DNA of 12,044 nt. Source: Caulobacteraceae bacterium. GTDB taxonomy: Bacteria > Pseudomonadota > Alphaproteobacteria > Caulobacterales > Caulobacteraceae. The notes below the pieces were generated by a model. The model was not told the origin of the DNA, made no database searches, and worked only from the letters and a program-made list of their open reading frames with translations. The translations under genes and the position numbers were made by a program. The DNA lies in assembly GCA_947479185.1 (NCBI GenBank), contig CANJYY010000047.1, forward strand, positions 1-12,044, given 5' to 3'. Shown here in pieces: positions 2,286 to 12,044 of this stretch (positions are counted from its first letter, which is position 1; every line of letters starts with the position of its first letter).

Positions 2286-3029
2286 CTACCCCCGCCCCAC
2301 GGCCTGAAGCCGCGCACCCTCGCGCTTGAGCCAGACCCGGTGCGGGGCGGGATCACCATTGAGCTCGCGCACCAGCGCCCAGAACCTGGGGCCGTGGTTG
2401 GCCTCGATCAGGTGCGCGCATTCGTGGGCGGCGACGTAGTCGGCGACCTCGGCGGTCGCCAGCGCCAGCCGCCAGCTGTAGCGGATCGAGGCCGGTCCCC
2501 GGACGCTGGCCGGCCGGCAGGAGCCCCAGCGGCCGCGCGCGTCGGTGATGGCGATCTTCGGCAGGGGCTGGTTCAGCGCCGCGCTGTGCACGGCGGTGCG
2601 CTCCGTCAGCCAGCGACGCGCCTCGAGCTTGACCAGCCGCAGCACCCGGTCGCTGAAGGCCGCGTCGTCGGGCGCGGAGATCGCGGGACCTTCTGTGTCG
2701 GCCCCCGGGATGAGCCGCGCGCGACCCGTTCCGGCGACCAGACGCACCGTCGCCCCGAACAGGCTGATCTCCATGCCCGGCCGCAGCGGCGTGGTCTGCG
2801 GCAGGTCAGCCAGCTGGCTGGCGATCCAGTCGACGCGCTCGTGGGCGAAGGCGACCGCCTCGTCGAGGCGGCGGGCGCTGGGGGCGATGGCGATGGCCTC
2901 GCGCTTGACCCGGTCGACCCGCAGGCTGATCCGCCGCGCCCGGGCGTTGACCGACAGGCGCACCGGATGACCGGCCGCCTCGATGCGGTCGCCATGGCTG
3001 AAACGGGGCCGGTCGAAGAGCTTCATCAT
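2286..3029 (-). CDS. YgjP/SprT-like zinc metallopeptidase (DUF45, M48-type domain)
   Basis: The protein has 247 aa. Its C-terminal half carries the zincin signature HECAH (H202, E203, H206) followed by NHGPRFW with H212, and it is preceded by the RWGSC element (167-171) that typifies the YgjP-like metallopeptidase family (DUF45). The N-terminal half is beta-rich, with arginine-rich segments of the ARRISLRVDR type, as usual in this family. No signal peptide is visible, so it is probably a cytoplasmic zinc protein. The physiological substrate of the family is not established. Two tandem ATGs (3029 and 3026) are possible starts and neither has a strong ribosome-binding site. It lies 40 bp downstream of phaZ on the same strand and could be co-transcribed, though no functional link is evident. 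Confidence 0.87.
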   Translation of the reverse strand: MMKLFDRPRFSHGDRIEAAGHPVRLSVNARARRISLRVDRVKREAIAIAPSARRLDEAVAFAHERVDWIASQLADLPQTTPLRPGMEISLFGATVRLVAGTGRARLIPGADTEGPAISAPDDAAFSDRVLRLVKLEARRWLTERTAVHSAALNQPLPKIAITDARGRWGSCRPASVRGPASIRYSWRLALATAEVADYVAAHECAHLIEANHGPRFWALVRELNGDPAPHRVWLKREGARLQAVGRG

Positions 3030-3069: not shown

Positions 3070-4320
3070 TCAGAAGTCTGGGTCCATCTCGCGGATGAAG
3101 GCCTGCACCTTGGGGAAGATCTCTTCCTTGAAACGCCTGCCGTTGAACACGCCGTAGTGGCCGACGCCTTCCTGGACGTGGTCCAGCTTCATCGCGGCGG
3201 GAATGTTCGGACACAGGTCGTGGGCCGCCTGGGTCTGGCCGATGCCGGAGATGTCGTCGAGTTCGCCCTCGACGGTCATCAGCGCGATGTCGGTGATCGC
3301 CGCCGGCTCCACGAGCCGCCCGCGATGCATCAGCTCGCCCTTGGGCAGGGCGTAGGACTGGAACACCTTGTCGATGGTCTGGAGGTAGAACTCCTCGGTC
3401 AGGTCCATCACGGCGAGATACTCGTCGTAGAAGGCCAGGTGCTTGTCGGCGCTGTCGCCGTCGCCGGCGACGAGGTTGTCGAAGTAGCGCCGGTGGGCGG
3501 CCTTGTGGCGGTCCATGTTCATCGACATGAAGCTGGCCAGCTGCACGAAGCCCGGATAGACGCGCCGGCCCGCGCCCGGATAGGGCGCCGGCACGGTGTA
3601 GATCATGCTCGACTGGAACCAGGTGAACGGCCGTTCCTCGGCCAACTTGTTGGTCACGGTCGGCGACAGGCGCGCATCGATGGGCGAGCCCATGAAGGTC
3701 ATGCTGCGCGGGCGATAGGCGTTGTCGTCCTGGGCCATCAGGGCCGCGGCGGCGAGCACCGGCGGGCCGGGCTGGCAGACGGCCACGACGTGGGCCCGGT
3801 GGCCGAGGGCCTCGAGCATCTGCTGGACGTGGTCGATGTAGTCGTCGAACTCGAAGCGGCCCTCCATCATCGGCACGTCCCGGGCGTTGGACCAGTCGGT
3901 GATGAACACGGCGTGGTCGGGCGCGAAGGCCTCGACCGTGCCGCGCAGCAGGGTGGCGTAGTGGCCGGACATCGGCGCGACGATCAGCACCGCCGGGTCC
4001 AGCTGCAGCTTGCCCGCGCGGCGCATGTCGGCCATGTCGCGGTCGAACTGGATCAGGCGGCACCAGGGGCTTTCCCAGACCACCGTCGGGCGGACCCGCA
4101 CCTTGTGGTCGTTGACGGTGATCTCGTCGATCATCCAGTCAGGCTTGCCATAGCGCCGCGTGACGGTGGCGTAGAGATCGGCGCCGGCGGAGATGCGGCG
4201 GCCGAGCGCCGAGTTGCGGGCGGGATTGAGCGGCGACGACCACCAGTCGCGGGTCACGCGCGCGGCGGCGCGCATGGGCGATGCGGCGTGGTAGTTCGCC
4301 TCGTGCAGGGCGTAAAGCAT
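3070..4320 (-). CDS. phaZ: Intracellular polyhydroxyalkanoate (PHB) depolymerase
   Basis: This 416-aa cytoplasmic enzyme hydrolyses native intracellular PHB granules to release hydroxybutyrate units. It is an alpha/beta hydrolase of the cysteine-nucleophile PhaZ class. The usual lipase box is replaced by VCQPGPP with C182 as nucleophile. The acid is probably D355 (EGELDDISG; D356 is possible) and the base H388 (EGVGHYGVF). Spacing and residue numbers closely resemble the Ralstonia PhaZa1 type. The N-terminus MLYALHEANYHAASPMRAAA is typical of the family, and there is no signal peptide, as expected for an intracellular enzyme. A GAGG ribosome-binding site precedes ATG 4320. The 70-bp gap to sco holds a plausible -10 and a TGC-rich dyad of the PhaR type, so phaZ probably has its own PHB-responsive promoter. 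Confidence 0.95.
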   Translation of the reverse strand: MLYALHEANYHAASPMRAAARVTRDWWSSPLNPARNSALGRRISAGADLYATVTRRYGKPDWMIDEITVNDHKVRVRPTVVWESPWCRLIQFDRDMADMRRAGKLQLDPAVLIVAPMSGHYATLLRGTVEAFAPDHAVFITDWSNARDVPMMEGRFEFDDYIDHVQQMLEALGHRAHVVAVCQPGPPVLAAAALMAQDDNAYRPRSMTFMGSPIDARLSPTVTNKLAEERPFTWFQSSMIYTVPAPYPGAGRRVYPGFVQLASFMSMNMDRHKAAHRRYFDNLVAGDGDSADKHLAFYDEYLAVMDLTEEFYLQTIDKVFQSYALPKGELMHRGRLVEPAAITDIALMTVEGELDDISGIGQTQAAHDLCPNIPAAMKLDHVQEGVGHYGVFNGRRFKEEIFPKVQAFIREMDPDF

Positions 4321-4390: not shown

Positions 4391-4996
4391 CTAGTCGCCG
4401 CGCATCGCCCTGCGGATCTGGTCGGCCATCTGGTCCGGGGTCAGACCATAGGCCAGGACGCGGTCGAACCGGCCCCGCGGGGTCATCAGATAGGCCACCG
4501 TCGAATGGTTGACCTGGTAGTCGGGACCGTCGCCGTCGATCTGGTAGACGACACGGTAGGCCTTCGCCGCGGCCGCCACCTGCTCGGGCGTGCCGGTCAG
4601 GCCCAGCGTTCCCTCGGGCATGGCCTGGGCGTCGAGCCAGGCCTTCATCTTGGCGGGCGTGTCGCGGCCGGCGTCGACCGAAACGAAGACGATGCGCAGG
4701 TCCTTGCCCTTGGGACCCAGCTGATCGACGGCCGTGCGCAGCGCCTGCATCGTCGTGGGGCAGACGTCGGGACAGTAGGTGTAGCCGAAGAAGACCACGC
4801 TCCATTTGCCCTTCAGCGCGGTCTGGTCGACCGGCCTGCCGTTCTGGTCGACCAGCTGGAACGGGCCGCCGACGACATCGGCGGTGGGCGCGGGCCGGAA
4901 CACGCCGGCGCTCAGGGCGAGGAATCCGGCGACCAGCAGGCCCAGGGCGCAGAGTACGATCAGCAACAGGCGATTGCGCGGCAAGGGACTCTCCAT
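4391..4996 (-). CDS. senC: Sco1/SenC/PrrC-family copper chaperone
   Basis: The protein has 201 aa, with an N-terminal hydrophobic anchor (about 9-33, no lipobox) and a periplasmic thioredoxin-like domain. The copper-binding CPDVCP motif (C75, C79) and the distal histidine H164 in VNHSTVAYL are all present, giving the complete Cu ligand set. The surrounding FFGYTYCPDVCPTT and SVDAGRDTP elements are diagnostic. Sco proteins deliver copper to, or reduce, the Cu(A) site of cytochrome c oxidase subunit II; in Rhodobacter the SenC/PrrC members sit beside the RegB/RegA redox regulators. Here the gene is divergent from regB with 41 bp between start codons, which supports the SenC-type assignment. It lies 70 bp upstream of phaZ on the same strand, though phaZ seems to have its own promoter. 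Confidence 0.95.
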   Translation of the reverse strand: MESPLPRNRLLLIVLCALGLLVAGFLALSAGVFRPAPTADVVGGPFQLVDQNGRPVDQTALKGKWSVVFFGYTYCPDVCPTTMQALRTAVDQLGPKGKDLRIVFVSVDAGRDTPAKMKAWLDAQAMPEGTLGLTGTPEQVAAAAKAYRVVYQIDGDGPDYQVNHSTVAYLMTPRGRFDRVLAYGLTPDQMADQIRRAMRGD

Positions 4997-5037: not shown

Positions 5038-6480
5038 ATGGCTTTGACATCCGCACTGGCGACAACCGCAGAGCAGGAGCCCGGACTCGATAGGCCGGGC
5101 CGACCGGCCGCGCAAGGCTGGGACGCCCTCTGGCCGGCGGGCGTGCCGCGCCGCGGTCGGCTGCGCGTCCGGGCCCTGACCAACCTGCGCTGGGTGGCCG
5201 TGGCGGGACAGACGATCACCGTCGTCGTCGTGGCCTATGTACTCGACCTGCCGACGCCCCAGGCGGCCTGTTTCGCCCTGATCGCCCTGTCGGCCTGGCT
5301 CAATGTGCTGGTCACCCTCGCCACCTCCGGGCAGCGGCTGGCGACCGACGGCGAGGCGGCCGCCCACATCGCTTTCGACATCCTGCAGATGTCGGGGCTG
5401 CTGTATCTGACCGGCGGCATCGTCAATCCCTTCTCCCTGCTGCTGATCGGGCCGGCGACCCTGGCGGCGGCCACCCTGCCGCTGCGCCACACGGTGGGGA
5501 TCGCCCTGCTGGCGATCGCCGCCTGCGTGTTTCTCGCCGTGACCGCGCTGCCGCTGCCGTCGCCGGACGCCGAACCGTTCAACCCGCCGATGCTCAACCG
5601 GATCGGGGCGGTCATGGCCCGGGTGCTGGGCATCTCGTTCACCGCCGCCTACGCCTGGTACGCCGCGCAGGAAGCGGCCCGCATGGAACTGGCGCTCGAC
5701 ACCGCCCACACCGTGCTCGCCCGCGAGCAAAGGCTTTCAGCCCTGGGCGCCCTGGCGGCGGCGGCGGCGCACGAACTGGGCACGCCGCTGGCGACCATTT
5801 CGATCGTCGCCAAGGAGATGGTCCGCAACACCCCCGACGGCCTGCTCAAGGATGACGCGGAACTGCTGATCACCCAGGCGGAACGCTGCCGCGACATCCT
5901 GCGCCAGCTGACCCGGACGCCCGAGGCCGCCGACGCCGTGCATGAGCGGATGTCCCTGCTGCAGGTGGTCCAGGAGGCCATCGCCCCGCACGCCCGACGG
6001 CCCGACGTGCGCGTCGAGGCGGTCGTGTCGGGCCCACACGACGAGCCCGCGCCGGAGATCTGGCGGCTGGCCGAGATCCTTCACGCCCTGACGGCCTTCG
6101 TCGAGAACGCGGTGGACTTCGCGCGGTCGGAAATCCTCGTCACCGCCCGGTTCGACGCACGGCACATCGCCATCGAGGTGCGCGATGACGGCCCGGGCTT
6201 CGCGCCGGAGGTCTTGCTAAAACTCGGCGAGCCCTATGTTACCAGCCGGCCGGGCGCCGAGACCATGCGCAGCGGCCATGTCGGCATGGGCCTCGGCTTC
6301 TTTATCGCCAAGACCCTGCTGGAACGGACAGGCGCCAATGTCGATTTCCGCAATGGCCGGCACGGCGGCGCGGTTATTACCGCGCGCTGGCGGCGGGAAG
6401 CGATCGAGGCCCCCTCGGAACCTGACGTTTTCTCTGACCACGGAACGCCTGAAGTGGCGTACAAGGGCGCGACAGAATGA
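5038..6480 (+). CDS. regB: Redox-sensing histidine kinase RegB/PrrB/ActS family
   Basis: The protein has 480 aa. The N-terminal half is a membrane domain of about six helices (about 50-210) carrying GGIVNPF (126-132), the GGxxNPF quinone-binding motif of RegB. The DHp H-box is AAAHELGTPLATI with phosphoacceptor H245. C284, in ERCRDIL 39 residues later, matches the redox-active cysteine of the RegB redox box. The ATPase domain has an N-box FVENAVDFA, G1 DDGPGF and G2 GMGLGFFIAKTLLERTGA. RegB autophosphorylates under reducing or low-oxygen conditions and signals to RegA; quinone and cysteine oxidation dampen it. The ATG at 5038 has no strong ribosome-binding site but starts 41 bp from divergent sco. 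regA follows after 45 bp, so the two probably form an operon. Confidence 0.96.
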   Translation: MALTSALATTAEQEPGLDRPGRPAAQGWDALWPAGVPRRGRLRVRALTNLRWVAVAGQTITVVVVAYVLDLPTPQAACFALIALSAWLNVLVTLATSGQRLATDGEAAAHIAFDILQMSGLLYLTGGIVNPFSLLLIGPATLAAATLPLRHTVGIALLAIAACVFLAVTALPLPSPDAEPFNPPMLNRIGAVMARVLGISFTAAYAWYAAQEAARMELALDTAHTVLAREQRLSALGALAAAAAHELGTPLATISIVAKEMVRNTPDGLLKDDAELLITQAERCRDILRQLTRTPEAADAVHERMSLLQVVQEAIAPHARRPDVRVEAVVSGPHDEPAPEIWRLAEILHALTAFVENAVDFARSEILVTARFDARHIAIEVRDDGPGFAPEVLLKLGEPYVTSRPGAETMRSGHVGMGLGFFIAKTLLERTGANVDFRNGRHGGAVITARWRREAIEAPSEPDVFSDHGTPEVAYKGATE

Positions 6481-6525
6481 CGCGATCTTTTCAATCGTCG
6501 CGGGAACAGTGAACAGGGTGACGTC

Positions 6526-7083
6526 GTGACCGACCTTTCCGAGCTGATCGCGGCGCTCGATGACCGCAGCCTGCTGGTTCTCGATGACGACTTGGCGCTG
6601 CGGACGCGCCTGAGCCGGGCGCTCGAGCAGCGCGGCTTCGACGTCCGCATGGCTGCGGGCGTTGCCGAAGCGCTGGAGTTGGTCAAGGCGTCCGCGCCGG
6701 CGTTCGCGGTGCTCGATATGCGGCTGGACGACGGCACGGGCCTCAAGGTGGTCCAGGCGATCCGCGACGCCCGGCCCGACTCCCGCGTGATCATGCTGAC
6801 CGGCTACGGGAACATCGCCACCGCCGTGGCGGCCGTTAAGGCCGGGGCGGTCGACTATCTGGCCAAGCCGGCCGACGCCGACGACGTGGCCCGCGCCCTG
6901 CTGGCCGCCGGCGATCACCTGGCCGCGCCGCCGGACAATCCGATGAGCGCCGACCGCGTCCGCTGGGAGCATATCCAGCGGGTCTACGAACTGTGCGGCC
7001 ACAACGTCTCGGAAACGGCGCGCCGCCTGTCGATGCATCGACGCACCCTGCAGCGCATCCTGGCCAAGCGCGCCCCGCGGTGA
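6526..7083 (+). CDS. regA: Redox response regulator RegA/PrrA/ActR family
   Basis: This 185-aa two-domain regulator pairs with RegB encoded 45 bp upstream. The receiver domain has the acidic cluster DDD at 20-22, phosphoacceptor D64 in FAVLDMRLDDGTG, a switch threonine in IMLTGYG, and the conserved lysine in DYLAKPAD. The output is a compact Fis-type helix-turn-helix whose end, ETARRLSMHRRTLQRILAKRAPR (about 163-185), is almost invariant across the RegA family. In relatives, phosphorylated RegA controls respiratory oxidases, carbon and nitrogen fixation and photosynthesis genes. The start is a GTG preceded by AGGGTG (about 6515-6520), a usable ribosome-binding site. Two REP-like hairpins begin directly after the stop. 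Confidence 0.96.
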   Translation: MTDLSELIAALDDRSLLVLDDDLALRTRLSRALEQRGFDVRMAAGVAEALELVKASAPAFAVLDMRLDDGTGLKVVQAIRDARPDSRVIMLTGYGNIATAVAAVKAGAVDYLAKPADADDVARALLAAGDHLAAPPDNPMSADRVRWEHIQRVYELCGHNVSETARRLSMHRRTLQRILAKRAPR

Positions 7084-7171: not shown

Positions 7172-7603
7172 TCACCCCCTGAACGCCGCCAGCCTTGCGA
7201 ACGCCAGGGTCAGGGCCTTGCGCCGGGCGGCGACCAGCGGCGTCCAGCCCGGCTCGCGCACCACCGCCCCGCCAAAGCCGTCGGCGACGATCAGCCCGGG
7301 TTCGGGCGGGATCAGGACATGCGGAAAATCGGGCGACACGGCGAAGAAGAAGGCGTCGCAATACGGCGCGTACTCGGCCCACTTGCGGTCGGTCAGATAG
7401 TCCTCGGCGCTCGACTTGACCTCGACGATGACGATCTCGCCCTTTGGCCCCAGCGCCATCAGGTCGGCGCGCCGGCCGTTGGGCAGCCCCACCTCGGCCA
7501 GCGGCGCATAGGCCATCTCCGCCAGCAGCCGCGCCGCGCCGCGGGTCACGGCCAGGGTGGTCTCCGGGCGGGAGATGGTGACAAGGGTCAGGGCGACGTC
7601 CAC
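7172..7603 (-). CDS. mmcB: MmcB family DNA repair protein (predicted nuclease fold)
   Basis: The protein has about 143 aa. Core elements are TLAVTRGAARLLAEMAY, then VGLPNGRRADLMAL, then IVIVEVKSSAEDYLTDRKW, then CDAFFFAVSPDFP. These match the MmcB family, first named in Caulobacter as a mitomycin-C-protective, SOS-linked repair factor. RRADL followed by EVK resembles a PD-(D/E)xK nuclease core, so a structure-specific nuclease role is plausible but unproven. The start is uncertain. The frame is open to a TTG at 7663, but that overlaps the T-tract of the terminator of the upstream gene. GTG 7603 gives a family-typical N-terminus with about 20 residues before the conserved TRG segment. I see no LexA-type box upstream, although family members are damage-inducible. 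Confidence 0.88.
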   Translation of the reverse strand: MDVALTLVTISRPETTLAVTRGAARLLAEMAYAPLAEVGLPNGRRADLMALGPKGEIVIVEVKSSAEDYLTDRKWAEYAPYCDAFFFAVSPDFPHVLIPPEPGLIVADGFGGAVVREPGWTPLVAARRKALTLAFARLAAFRG

Positions 7604-7659
7604 GGCCGCATTGATGTTCCGGTTTCGTTCGTTGTCAAGGCGGGGCCAGGCTTCAGAAC

Positions 7660-7691
7660 GCAAAACGCCCCGCCGTTGGAGGCGGGGCGTT
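7660..7691 (-). terminator. Rho-independent terminator of the ferritin-like gene
   Basis: A perfect 11-bp stem, AACGCCCCGCC (7664-7674) with GGCGGGGCGTT (7681-7691), encloses a 6-nt loop. Read on the minus strand, the stem ends in TTTT followed by G, a short U-tract. It lies about 25 bp beyond the stop codon at 7716 and just ahead of mmcB, so it separates the two transcripts. Confidence 0.88.
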
Positions 7692-7715: not shown

Positions 7716-8843
7716 TTACTCGGCGGCGATGCTGACCGGCTTGTGCTCGCGGTCCTTGAAGTTGATCGCCTGCAGGTAACGGATGCCGTCCTCGGCGATG
7801 TCGTCGCCGACCATCCGGTCGCCTTCCATCTTCAGCTCTTCCAGGTCGACATACATGCCGTAGAAGGCCTTGGTGCGGTCGGTGATGATGCCGGCGTTGA
7901 GCAGCGTCTTGACCAGCACGCGGAAGATGTTGGTCTGTTCCTTCATGCTCTCGCGACGGATGTCGTCGGTCATGATCTGGGCGAACTCGGCGATGACCTT
8001 GTCGGGGTCGAGGCCGAAGCTCTCGTACAGGTCCCGCTGCTGGTTGGGGCCGACCAGGTTGAACAGCACGGCCTGGAAGCAGTGGGCCGCCCAGTCCTCG
8101 ATGATCGCGTGTTCCTCGGGGCTCAGCTTGGGGATCGTGCGATCGGCCCAGATCTTCCCGAACTTGTGGTGGAAGGCCTCGTCGGTCATGACCAGCTGCA
8201 TCAGCTTCTTGCCGACCGGGTCATTGAGCTTGTTGTAGAAGGTGGCGAAGGCGCCCATGGCCAGGCCCTCGACCAGCATCTGCATGCCGATGATCTTCTT
8301 GTAGACCTCCGGCGCGCCGATGATCTCGACCAGCAGGGCCTTCAGCGTCGGGCCGCACTCGACCGGCTTGCCCCAGCGCGCCTTGACGTATTTGGCGAAG
8401 GCCGTGACGTGGCGGGCTTCCTCGCGGGTCTGGTTGGCGGCATATTCCTGCGCGCCCTGGTCCTTCAGCACGTGGCAGAGGCTGGCCGACAGGTTCAGCG
8501 CGCCCTGCTCGCCGTGCAGGATCGAGGAGAAGTTGCGCAGGGTCGACTCGTTGATGAAGCGGATGCGCTCCAGCGGGTCGGACAGGTGGTTGGAGACGTA
8601 GTCAGTGGCCAGGGCCACGACCATGTCCTCGGGAACGAGGGCCTGGTTGACCATGTCGAAGGGCTCGTCGAAGTCGATGTAGTCCTTGTCCAGCGGATCC
8701 CAGAAGTGGTCGTGGGTCGCGGAGATGATCTTGTCGAAGGCCGTGGAGCGGTTGTTGTAGCGGTCGAGCTCGAGCATCGACTCGAAATCGTCCGGCGCAA
8801 CCGCGTCGTACATGGCGTCCTTGGTGATGTTCTTGTCGCTCAT
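7716..8843 (-). CDS. Ferritin-like di-iron carboxylate protein of unknown substrate
   Basis: This 375-aa soluble protein has a complete four-helix-bundle di-iron ligand set: E112 (HGEQGAL), E142xxH145 (REEARHVTAFA), E192 (LVEGLAMG) and E222xxH225 (TDEAFHHKFG). This is the E/ExxH/E/ExxH layout of the ferritin-like oxygenase, oxidase and ribonucleotide reductase R2 superfamily. It is too long for a ferritin or rubrerythrin and has no rubredoxin CxxC pairs. An AurF-like N-oxygenase, desaturase or other O2-activating enzyme is possible. I recognise it only as a ferritin-like domain protein, so the reaction is unknown. Start ATG 8843 follows a clear CGGAGGAC ribosome-binding site about 11 bp upstream; the 22 additional in-frame codons up to 8909 are excluded because they lie beyond this site. 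It is monocistronic, with its own terminator and a palindromic operator candidate upstream. Confidence 0.85.
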   Translation of the reverse strand: MSDKNITKDAMYDAVAPDDFESMLELDRYNNRSTAFDKIISATHDHFWDPLDKDYIDFDEPFDMVNQALVPEDMVVALATDYVSNHLSDPLERIRFINESTLRNFSSILHGEQGALNLSASLCHVLKDQGAQEYAANQTREEARHVTAFAKYVKARWGKPVECGPTLKALLVEIIGAPEVYKKIIGMQMLVEGLAMGAFATFYNKLNDPVGKKLMQLVMTDEAFHHKFGKIWADRTIPKLSPEEHAIIEDWAAHCFQAVLFNLVGPNQQRDLYESFGLDPDKVIAEFAQIMTDDIRRESMKEQTNIFRVLVKTLLNAGIITDRTKAFYGMYVDLEELKMEGDRMVGDDIAEDGIRYLQAINFKDREHKPVSIAAE

Positions 8844-8900
8844 CGCGGGGGTCCTCCGGCCAGTCGGGTAAACGGGCCCGTTGCAGCCGGACCTCGTGCA

Positions 8901-8917
8901 GGTGAACACTGTCCACC
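8901..8917 (-). promoter_or_regulatory. 17-bp palindromic operator candidate upstream of the ferritin-like gene
   Basis: GGTGAACACTGTCCACC is a dyad with half-sites GGTGAACA and TGTCCACC around a central C; 7 of 8 pairs match. It lies 58 bp upstream of the ATG at 8843. On the minus strand, TTGACC (8930-8935) forms a good -35, and the 17-bp-spaced -10 position (ACAGTG, 8907-8912) falls inside the palindrome. That position suits a repressor. The shape resembles TetR-family operators, and no regulator gene lies in the window. Confidence 0.5.
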
Positions 8918-9077: not shown

Positions 9078-9509
9078 TCAGCCGACCTCTTCCCCCTCGA
9101 GTTCGCGCAGCAGCGCCGGGTCACGGCGGGCGCGGTCGACCAGATCCGGGCCGTCATCGCGCCCTTCCATCTCCAGCAGGTCGGCCAGGCGGGACAGCCG
9201 GCCGGCGGCGGCCTCGAGCCCGGCGTCATCGGTGTCGAGCACGGTGAACACGGTCGCCACCACATGCTTGCAGCGCAGGCCGCCGTCGGCGAAGTCGGGA
9301 CAGGTGCAGCGGGCGTCGGACGCATTCCGGGCCGAGACCTCGACCACGTAGGCGATGCCGCGTTCGCCGGTCACATGGGCGAGCACCCCCGACGGCGAAA
9401 CCTCGACCAGATCGACCCAGCCCTTGGCGGCATAGGCTTCGCCGCGCATGACCCGGGCCTCGGGCATGTCACGGCAGACGGCGTCGTAGTCGAACTCGGG
9501 CGCGATCAT
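9078..9509 (-). CDS. Small SWIM zinc-finger protein
   Basis: This 143-aa protein has a CxCx9CxH SWIM motif: C68 and C70 in RCTCPDF, then C80 and H82 in LRCKHVVATVF. SWIM fingers bind zinc and mediate DNA or protein contacts, for example in SWI2/SNF2 ATPases, MULE transposases and MEK kinase partners. Here the finger stands alone with an N-terminal beta-rich segment (about 20-60) and an acidic helical tail ending LEGEEVG, so it may be an adaptor. The start ATG 9507-9509 overlaps the TGA of a 9-codon upstream reading frame (ATGA), suggesting translational coupling. It is the last gene of a three-gene minus-strand group and 51 bp after the YCII-like gene. Function unknown. Confidence 0.85.
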   Translation of the reverse strand: MIAPEFDYDAVCRDMPEARVMRGEAYAAKGWVDLVEVSPSGVLAHVTGERGIAYVVEVSARNASDARCTCPDFADGGLRCKHVVATVFTVLDTDDAGLEAAAGRLSRLADLLEMEGRDDGPDLVDRARRDPALLRELEGEEVG

Positions 9510-10341: not shown

Positions 10342-10365
10342 ATGATTCGGGCGGGTTATAAATGA
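10342..10365 (+). promoter_or_regulatory. divL start region: GANTC site and 7-codon upstream frame
   Basis: An ATG at 10342 opens MIRAGYK and ends at TGA 10363-10365, overlapping the divL ATG 10362-10364 (ATGA). The frame contains GATTC (10344-10348), a GANTC site methylated by CcrM in Caulobacter-type bacteria, 14 bp before the divL start. No clear ribosome-binding site precedes either start, so divL could be translated by coupling or from a leaderless or weakly led transcript. No confident -35/-10 was found in the 94-bp divergent spacer. Confidence 0.35.
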
Positions 10366-12044
10366 CGCAGATGCAATTGATCGTCGCCGCCACGGCGGGC
10401 GCCGTCTGCCTGGCGATCTGCGCGGTGCTGTGGGCGCTGGTGCAACGCCGGGCGATGGACTGGCGCCTTCGGGTGATGCAGGACCGGCTCGAGGCCGTCG
10501 AAGGCCGCGCCGCCGCCGCCCAGGCCTCGGCCGAGGCCTTCGACAGCAGCCTGCTGGTGATCGACGACGGCCGCGCCCTGCTGGCCTCCGGCGAGGAGAA
10601 CCTGGAGGCCTGCGCGGCGGCCTTCGGCCTGACCGGGGCCGATCCGCAGGGCATGGTCAACGCCATCATGCGCGCCGATCCCGACCATGCCGCCCGGCTG
10701 CGCGCCCTGTTCGAACGCGGCGAGCCCTGCGCCTTCGAGGCCCGCGGGCCCCGGGGCGTTGTCTCGGTCGAGGGCCGCGCCGCCGGCGCCCTGGCCTGGC
10801 TGCGGCTGACGGCCGTCGGGACCGATGAGACCGCCCTGCCGAGCGCCGCGCGCCTGGCCGCCTTCCTCGACGCCCGGCCCGAGCCGGCCTGGATCGCCGG
10901 AGCGGACGGCGCCGTACAGTGGGCCAACAAGGCCTGGCTGACCGCGGTCAGCGCCCGCGACGCCGGCGACGCCGCCAGCCTGGGTCTGTCTCTCGACAAG
11001 GGGGCCGACGCCATCGCCAGCGAGGCGGCCAACCTCGGCCTGCGCCGCGAGACGACCCGCTGGATCTCGCTCGGCGGCCGCCGCCGGTCGCTGAAGATCA
11101 CCGCCGAGCCGCTCGACGGCGGCGGGGTCGCGGTCTGGACCACCGACGCCACCCAGGCCGAGGAGATCCAGGACGCGCTCAAGCGCCACGTCGCCGCTCA
11201 CGACGAAACGCTGAACCACATCGCCGAGGCGGTGGCCATCTTTGGCCCGACCCGCCGGCTGTCGTTCCACAACACCGCTTTTTCGGACCTGTGGGGCCTC
11301 GACCCCGCCTGGCTGGCCGAGCGGCCGACACACGGGGAGATCCTCGACCGGCTGCGCCAGCGCCAGCGGCTTCCCGAGACGCCCGACTACGCCAAGTGGA
11401 AGGCCGCCGAGCTGGCCCGCTACGAGACCCTCGGACCCCAGCCTGACGACCGCTGGACGCTGCCCGACGGCCGCACCCTGCGGCTGATCCGCCAACCGCA
11501 CCCGATGGGCGGCCTGCTGCTGCTCTATTCGGACATCACCGGCGAGGTGCGGCTGCGCGCCCAGTACAACGCCCTGATCCAGGTGCAGCAGGCGACGCTC
11601 GACAAGCTCAACGACGCGGTCGTGGTGTTCGGCTCCAACGGCCGGCTGCGGCTGCACAACGAGGCCTTTGCCCGCTTCTGGGCCATCGGCGAGGACGACC
11701 TGGTCGAGGGGGTCAACTTCGAGCGGGTCGTCGAACTGTGCGTGCCGCGCCTGCACGACATGGCCTTCTGGGGCGAACTCAAGGGCCGGGTCGGCGATCC
11801 CGATCCCGAAGCCCGCGCCCCGACCGCGGGCGAGATCCGCAACGCGCTCGGCCGCATCGTCGCCTGGCAGACCCGGCCGCTGCCCGACGGCGCGACCCTG
11901 ATCGCCTTCGCCGACATCACCGACGCCCGCCAGCTGGAAGGCGCCCTGGCCGACCGCGAGGCGGCCCTCGACAGCGCCGAGCGGCTCAAGCGCGAGTTCG
12001 TCGGCAACGTCTCCTATGAACTGCGCACGCCGCTGACGACGATC
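10362..12044 (+). CDS. divL: Cell-cycle pseudo-histidine kinase DivL, 3' end outside the window
   Basis: 561 codons are present and the frame is still open at the window end. Order: an N-terminal membrane helix (about 5-26), a coiled-coil linker (27-58), and four PAS-like modules at about 58-155, 168-260, 285-390 and 415-520, the last two ending LLYSDITGEV and IAFADITDAR. The start of the DHp helix follows. The H-box reads FVGNVSYELRTPLTTI, where Y552 replaces the phosphoacceptor histidine. Caulobacter DivL has tyrosine at the equivalent position (Y550) with a similar length before it, making the assignment strong. In Caulobacter, DivL binds phospho-free DivK and stimulates the CckA kinase, which drives CtrA activation at the new cell pole. 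The ATPase domain (about 200 more residues expected) lies outside. ATG 10362 is chosen because the membrane helix starts there; there is a GANTC site upstream. Confidence 0.93.
   Translation, partial: MTQMQLIVAATAGAVCLAICAVLWALVQRRAMDWRLRVMQDRLEAVEGRAAAAQASAEAFDSSLLVIDDGRALLASGEENLEACAAAFGLTGADPQGMVNAIMRADPDHAARLRALFERGEPCAFEARGPRGVVSVEGRAAGALAWLRLTAVGTDETALPSAARLAAFLDARPEPAWIAGADGAVQWANKAWLTAVSARDAGDAASLGLSLDKGADAIASEAANLGLRRETTRWISLGGRRRSLKITAEPLDGGGVAVWTTDATQAEEIQDALKRHVAAHDETLNHIAEAVAIFGPTRRLSFHNTAFSDLWGLDPAWLAERPTHGEILDRLRQRQRLPETPDYAKWKAAELARYETLGPQPDDRWTLPDGRTLRLIRQPHPMGGLLLLYSDITGEVRLRAQYNALIQVQQATLDKLNDAVVVFGSNGRLRLHNEAFARFWAIGEDDLVEGVNFERVVELCVPRLHDMAFWGELKGRVGDPDPEARAPTAGEIRNALGRIVAWQTRPLPDGATLIAFADITDARQLEGALADREAALDSAERLKREFVGNVSYELRTPLTTI

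Follow-up and report, generated by a model that had tools for sequence, protein, structure and literature searches.

Background

The closest described protein is DivL of Caulobacter crescentus, which, according to the accessible part of PMC4211667, binds DivK~P and lacks both kinase and phosphatase activity. The same partial text reports that DivL constructs with three and two PAS domains (from residues 152 and 281) bind DivK~P specifically; that the substitutions R553A, T557N, Y562A and H579E each disrupt the interaction with DivK; that the Y550H form retains DivK~P binding and becomes loaded with phosphate when DivK~P and ATP are supplied; and that DivL homologues throughout the alpha-proteobacteria keep Tyr550, except for Ala in Magnetospirillum magneticum. 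Three further papers describe two kinds of DivL orthologue, one that has a kinase domain and one that lacks it and occurs where there is no DivK (PMC2877005), a short DivL together with a degenerate long DivL in Rhodobacterales (PMC9430884), and a wider conservation of divL, with two homologues in some genomes (PMC8116508). The word tyrosine is absent from the available text of PMC2877005, and the accessible portions of the DivL literature, mostly open-access and including these three papers, yielded no mention of a His-bearing DivL and no work on DivL together with Sneathiella.

A divL gene at the contig end

The window, i.e. the whole stretch of DNA analysed here, is the entire contig C47 (12044 bp) of a 410-contig genome assembly, G000, that is 73.8% complete. 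The ORF reading of the window places divL at 10362..12044 on the + strand, where a frame opens with ATG at 10362 and runs without a stop to the last base, 12044, giving the first 561 codons; since the window is the whole contig, the missing C-terminus of DivL reflects the end of the assembly and not a stop codon. The H-box, NVSYELRTPL, spans codons 549-558 (12006..12035, + strand), and codon 552 is TAT (12015-12017), which gives Y552 in FVGNVSYELRTPL. The initial annotation had singled out this tyrosine at the phosphoacceptor position; its coordinates and codon hold on re-reading, and the residue is common to the homologues. A 562-aa frame opposite divL is, we infer, a by-product of high G+C.

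A protein search with the window protein returned 1625 matches, the best 120 of which were taken for alignment. The closest is P0001, a complete protein of 773 aa from a Caulobacter sp. MAG that is 93% identical along the full 561 residues; these best 120 of 1625 also include several Phenylobacterium proteins bearing the name 'cell cycle protein kinase DivL'. Among PDB sequences the top match is 4q20, 'Sensor protein DivL', over residues 523-561 with an E-value of 6.7e-11; the next, an ordinary kinase, has 0.052. Alignment with Caulobacter DivL, a check proposed in the initial annotation, gives 69% identity to the C. vibrioides T5M6 protein (385 of 559 aligned residues), with the Tyr column shared and the aligned pairs Y552=Y550, R555=R553 and T559=T557. 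The earlier statement that the numbering agrees with Y550 of C. crescentus is right as to the column, where Y552 falls opposite Y550 in both C. vibrioides strains compared (T5M6 and DSM 9893), but there is an offset of 2.

Tyr occupies the Y552 column in 119 of these 120 homologues; in the remaining one, P0015, the sequence is out of frame at this point. All 80 of the named genome loci (the top 80 of 156) have a Tyr H-box, with the codon TAC in 62 and TAT in 18. One could still suppose that the TAT is a misread His codon, CAT, one base away, and that the gene encodes an ordinary PhoR-type sensor kinase, the H-box region drawing weak PhoR-type matches from NCBIfam; yet the homologues and the named loci carry Tyr, in the latter mostly as TAC, the PhoR match lies far under its curated cut-off (34.6 vs 334.2 bits), and the best matches of the window protein are Tyr-bearing DivL proteins instead of PhoR-type His kinases. 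A sequencing error at codon 552 is ruled out by the Tyr of the homologues, and the PhoR-type reading, with Tyr and not His at the site, has practically no chance of being correct. The gene is almost certainly the divL of a Caulobacter-like bacterium, interrupted where the contig ends, and its product is most likely a membrane-anchored pseudokinase acting through DivK~P and CckA; as such it is an ordinary DivL orthologue, a known protein, and nothing beyond that. One of the named loci, L088, has an extra, unrelated His H-box on the opposite strand.

A search of G000 with full-length P0001 gave 41 matches, among which the window is the sole close one (the runner-up is 38% identical), and the rest of the C-terminal part of divL was not found in this assembly. 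About 210 C-terminal residues are absent, including the ATPase domain and the positions of Y562 and H579, and the C-terminal DHp/CA core with its N, G1, F and G2 boxes falls beyond the contig end; its state in the source genome is assumed from relatives. HisKA and HATPase_c both appear in the Pfam listing of 118 of the 120 listed relatives (P0015 has neither and P0098 lacks HATPase_c), both are there in full-length P0001, P0040 and C. vibrioides DivL, and P0001 keeps the equivalents of Y562 and H579 as Y564 and H582. The two domains in the relatives, together with a reading frame that is open through the contig's final base, argue against a natural truncation to the PAS part of the kind seen in the short Rhodobacterales DivL, a reading that the DHp domain of only about 20 residues in the window would favour and that we consider extremely improbable.

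Domain architecture and the first two PAS modules

The order of transmembrane segment, coiled coil and PAS modules that had first suggested DivL is borne out by hydropathy, the AlphaFold2 helix and Pfam matches to PAS_7 and PAS_4; the features below are all on the + strand. The N-terminal transmembrane segment (10377..10433) is the best 19-residue hydrophobic stretch, from residue 6; behind it a long helix extends to roughly residue 59 (helix 3-59 in the AlphaFold2 model). This model of the window protein (mean pLDDT 82.2, pTM 0.38) has four PAS-like modules: PAS-A, residues 63-152 (10548..10817), which is drawn from AlphaFold2 secondary structure and is Pfam-invisible; PAS-B, residues 162-262 (10845..11147), which has a PAS-like order of strands and helices in AlphaFold2; PAS-C, residues 290-391 (11229..11534), supported by Pfam PAS_7 (284-397), AlphaFold2 and a fold search; and PAS-D, residues 419-518 (11616..11915), supported by Pfam PAS_4 (413-523; PAS_7 when scanned alone), AlphaFold2 and the fold search, which was run with the whole model and covers mainly residues 172-546, PAS-A barely. 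The signal helix and the start of the DHp (HisKA) helix follow at residues 520-561 (11919..12044), with a partial, sub-threshold HisKA match at 543-561 and the 4q20 match at 523-561. Arg555 (12024..12026) and Thr559 (12036..12038), the DivK-docking residues within reach of the window, are both present and align with R553 and T557, whose role is described in the accessible part of PMC4211667.

Compared with the DivL of C. crescentus/vibrioides (4q20), the window protein shares the order of transmembrane segment, helix, PAS and DHp, the Tyr at the phosphoacceptor site and the R553/T557 residues; it differs in its numbering (+2), in its missing C-terminal part and in its first two PAS modules, which are 62% (PAS-A) and 54% (PAS-B) identical to those of C. 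vibrioides, against 78% for PAS-C and 73% for PAS-D. These two modules had been called degenerate, and their divergence possibly new. When each module is scanned alone against Pfam, no PAS family matches PAS-A of either the window protein or C. vibrioides DivL, and for PAS-B both proteins show sub-threshold PAS matches only (PAS_8, 12.0 bits in the window vs 18.3 bits in C. vibrioides); 'degenerate' is a fair description of what Pfam returns, but the suggested novelty is not supported, as C. vibrioides DivL is alike.

That PAS-A and PAS-B have decayed, sense or bind nothing and form a lineage-specific novelty is very unlikely. Their poor Pfam scores, with PAS-B below its C. vibrioides counterpart, and their lower identity to C. 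vibrioides speak in favour, as does the specific binding of DivK~P by C. crescentus DivL from residue 281, without PAS-A and PAS-B (PMC4211667, available in part); because this construct still binds, the two modules may be dispensable for DivK~P binding. On the other side, C. vibrioides DivL has the same Pfam pattern; the AlphaFold2 model, which supplies the PAS modelling suggested in the initial annotation, predicts a PAS-like strand and helix order at both 63-152 and 162-262; and invariant columns of the 121-row alignment make up 27% of residues 54-150 and 18% of residues 151-280, while mean identity to the window over 119 homologues is 77% for PAS-A, 75% for PAS-D and 64% for PAS-B, the lowest of the four.

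The cell-cycle circuit

The initial annotation had placed this genome within the CckA-DivK-CtrA circuit. CckA has one match in G000 (1021 bits vs an NCBIfam cut-off of 1000), and so does CtrA (409 bits vs a cut-off of 350, with a Rhodobacter-type NCBIfam model); each of the two models passes its cut-off in 1 of 14 control genomes. DivK was sought in 16 genomes with a C. crescentus DivK sequence as query and a threshold of E 1e-25; 15 of them matched, including the same-genus G571 (one match, 93% identity), and G000 gave no match at this threshold, an absence that says little since the assembly lacks a quarter of the genome. Of the proposed circuit, CckA and CtrA are in place, and the search of this 74% complete genome found no DivK. 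The window gene extends the set of DivL sequences by one and is in keeping with a Caulobacter-like bacterium that has the CckA-CtrA pathway.

By analogy with the C. crescentus work, from which the DivK~P sensing, the CckA control and the absent kinase activity of the window DivL are inferred, the four PAS modules and the helix would relay signals to the DHp/ATPase core. This predicted core could not autophosphorylate, because Tyr replaces His, and would instead dock the response regulator DivK~P; docking would switch the kinase/phosphatase balance of CckA and, via ChpT, CtrA activity.

The residue at the phosphoacceptor site across the class

The His-bearing relatives that emerged from a class-wide survey matter more than the window gene itself. 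The survey query was residues 54-530, the PAS part with the H-box excluded, so that Tyr played no part in selection. With its own genome counted, the searches found a match in 228 of 385 genomes drawn from the class and in 198 of 200 from the order, and a sample of 158 loci was read: the window (L105) and 157 loci from 155 genomes. The latter comprise 129 loci from the class search (the 29 of L106-L134 and 100 more), in which L185 and L233 are second matches of one genome, and 28 more from the order search; L274-L276 were added afterwards. Across the 158 loci, the Y552 column holds Tyr in 140, His in 6 (L207, L210, L239, L248, L252 and L258), Phe in 2, Val, Thr, Arg and Glu in 1 each, and is unassignable in 6. 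The three further genomes of the L248 genus (L274-L276) also have His, making four of four of this genus in the sample. Judged from these sequences, Tyr is not universal among the DivL relatives of the class.

Phe (L110, L219), Val (L217), Thr (L130), Arg (L243) and Glu (L255) at the site add to the Ala reported for Magnetospirillum. In L202 the frame stops directly after FIANVS, at the expected Tyr, through either a real truncation or an assembly error. Five loci (L182, L183, L198, L213 and L233) end ahead of any transmitter domain and are probably short Rhodobacterales-type DivL or other PAS proteins.

A protein search with L275 returned 4165 matches; the closest among the best 120 of these are from Sneathiella, and the 120 divide into 60 with His (P0121-P0179 and P0188) and 60 with Tyr (43-54% identity). 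The His forms include P0169 from Sneathiella sp. HT1-7 and P0179 from Oceanibacterium hippocampi. Two DivL-like proteins carry unexpected labels, P0035 Parcubacteria and P0188 the brown alga Discosporangium; both probably come from mis-binned or associated bacterial DNA.

The Sneathiella relatives (L248, L274-L276, P0121 and others), found by PAS-only similarity with one clear copy per genome, resemble the window DivL in their PAS part, and L275 was shown to have HisKA and HATPase_c. They are unlike DivL in having His for Tyr and a length of about 695 aa, and those whose sequence was read out have Asn in place of T557.

Origin of the His-bearing forms

A quick tree of 85 rows (20 His, 64 Tyr and 1 Val), built without the H-box and without an inferred root, requires four changes by parsimony to account for the His rows, three of them forced by well-supported branches, and places the Sneathiella/Oceanibacterium His group inside Tyr-type relatives. 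A tree of 151 rows, which omits seven rows without Y/H/F/V/T/R in the column and one over-short Tyr row, gives the same change counts, with His forms nested in Tyr types; it is because of this nesting that the change is read, on an unrooted tree, as running from Tyr to His. A single His clade of all 20 rows is rejected (p-AU 1.3e-121), as is a single clade of Sneathiella/Oceanibacterium and L210 when six long or decayed rows are left out (p-AU 0.00035); the trees are quick ones and the groups were named post hoc, after the first tree, which weakens both p-values.

It is unlikely that the His-bearing proteins are mere paralogues of DivL. The His loci were chosen by PAS residues only, and the top PAS match of each of the nine His genomes has an E-value of 3e-46 to 6e-67, the next being 4.5e-11 or weaker (two genomes have none listed). 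A Tyr-type H-box pattern that recovers 136 of 139 Tyr-type loci is found in none of the 11 non-Tyr genomes scanned with it, which include six of the nine His genomes (all but G041, G168 and G265), and the His forms are nested within Tyr types on the trees. The His form may also be a replacement that followed the loss of DivL. A DivK match at 73-78% identity is present in nine of nine His genomes.

A downstream tsaE was tried and rejected as a synteny mark of DivL: a TsaE-like P-loop is found in none of the 80 named loci (75 with room for it), whereas one comes next in 26 of the 131 Tyr-type loci of the survey that leave room for it, and in 3 of the 6 His loci.

The ATP site of the His forms

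Tyr at 550 is taken as a mark of DivL, yet some relatives carry His together with an apparently complete ATP site. By eye, the N, G1, F and G2 boxes are kept in L248, L274-L276 and L210, and G1 and G2 are not recognisable in L207, L239, L258 and L252. Motif scans gave a similar picture, with no motif in L252, L207 and L239 and only an N-like match in L258. The N, G1 and G2 motifs are all there in 14 of the 16 rows of Sneathiella/Oceanibacterium and L210, the other two lacking N only, and in 55 of the 60 His rows among the best 120 of the 4165 L275 matches, where P0137, P0155 and P0161 miss one motif and the short P0178 and P0188 miss all. Tyr forms, too, can have an incomplete ATP site: of the 64 Tyr rows, 47 have all three motifs, 11 lack N only and 6 lack G1 or G2. 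Asn at the T557 position occurs in the Sneathiella forms and L210 and also in the Tyr-type L188, L241 and L250, and since Tyr-type relatives share it, it is by itself no sign of lost DivK binding.

The Sneathiella-type His forms may be candidates for restored kinases, and L207, L239, L258 and L252, if inactive, would be so by another route. Whether the pseudokinase state of DivL is reversible, with His regained at least twice from Tyr ancestors, an active Sneathiella form and ATP-decayed others, is on motifs and tree shape an even call, and a reversal of DivL function may be offered as a candidate reading. If it is true, the Sneathiella DivL, with ATP-site motifs in most of the listed forms and DivK kept, would once more work as a histidine kinase, coupled to DivK and supplying the DivK/CckA circuit with phosphate, and in a few other genomes His would have returned with a decayed ATP domain, leaving a protein inactive through a different lesion. 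The His forms would then be natural experiments on whether kinase loss is essential to DivL function, and would also bear on how evolution turns a pseudokinase back into a kinase.

Neighbouring genes

The other genes on the contig leave the DivL reading unchanged. They encode, in order, a PBP1A-family transpeptidase (about 351-2276, +), a YgjP-like metallopeptidase (2286-3029, -), PhaZ (3070-4320, -), SCO1/SenC (4391-4996, -), RegB/PrrB (5038-6480, +), RegA/PrrA (6526-7083, +), an MmcB-like protein (7172-7663, -), a 397-aa AurF-like protein (7716-8909, -), a SWIM protein (9078-9509, -) and a Zincin_1 metallopeptidase that is divergent from divL (from 9863, start uncertain, -). The 397-aa protein has AurF and aldehyde-decarbonylase matches, sub-threshold only, and is perhaps a ferritin-like di-iron protein. 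The RegB/PrrB-RegA/PrrA redox pair (5038-7083, +) is complete, with both members over their NCBIfam cut-offs (ActS_PrrB_HisK, 535 bits; ActR_PrrA, 305 bits).
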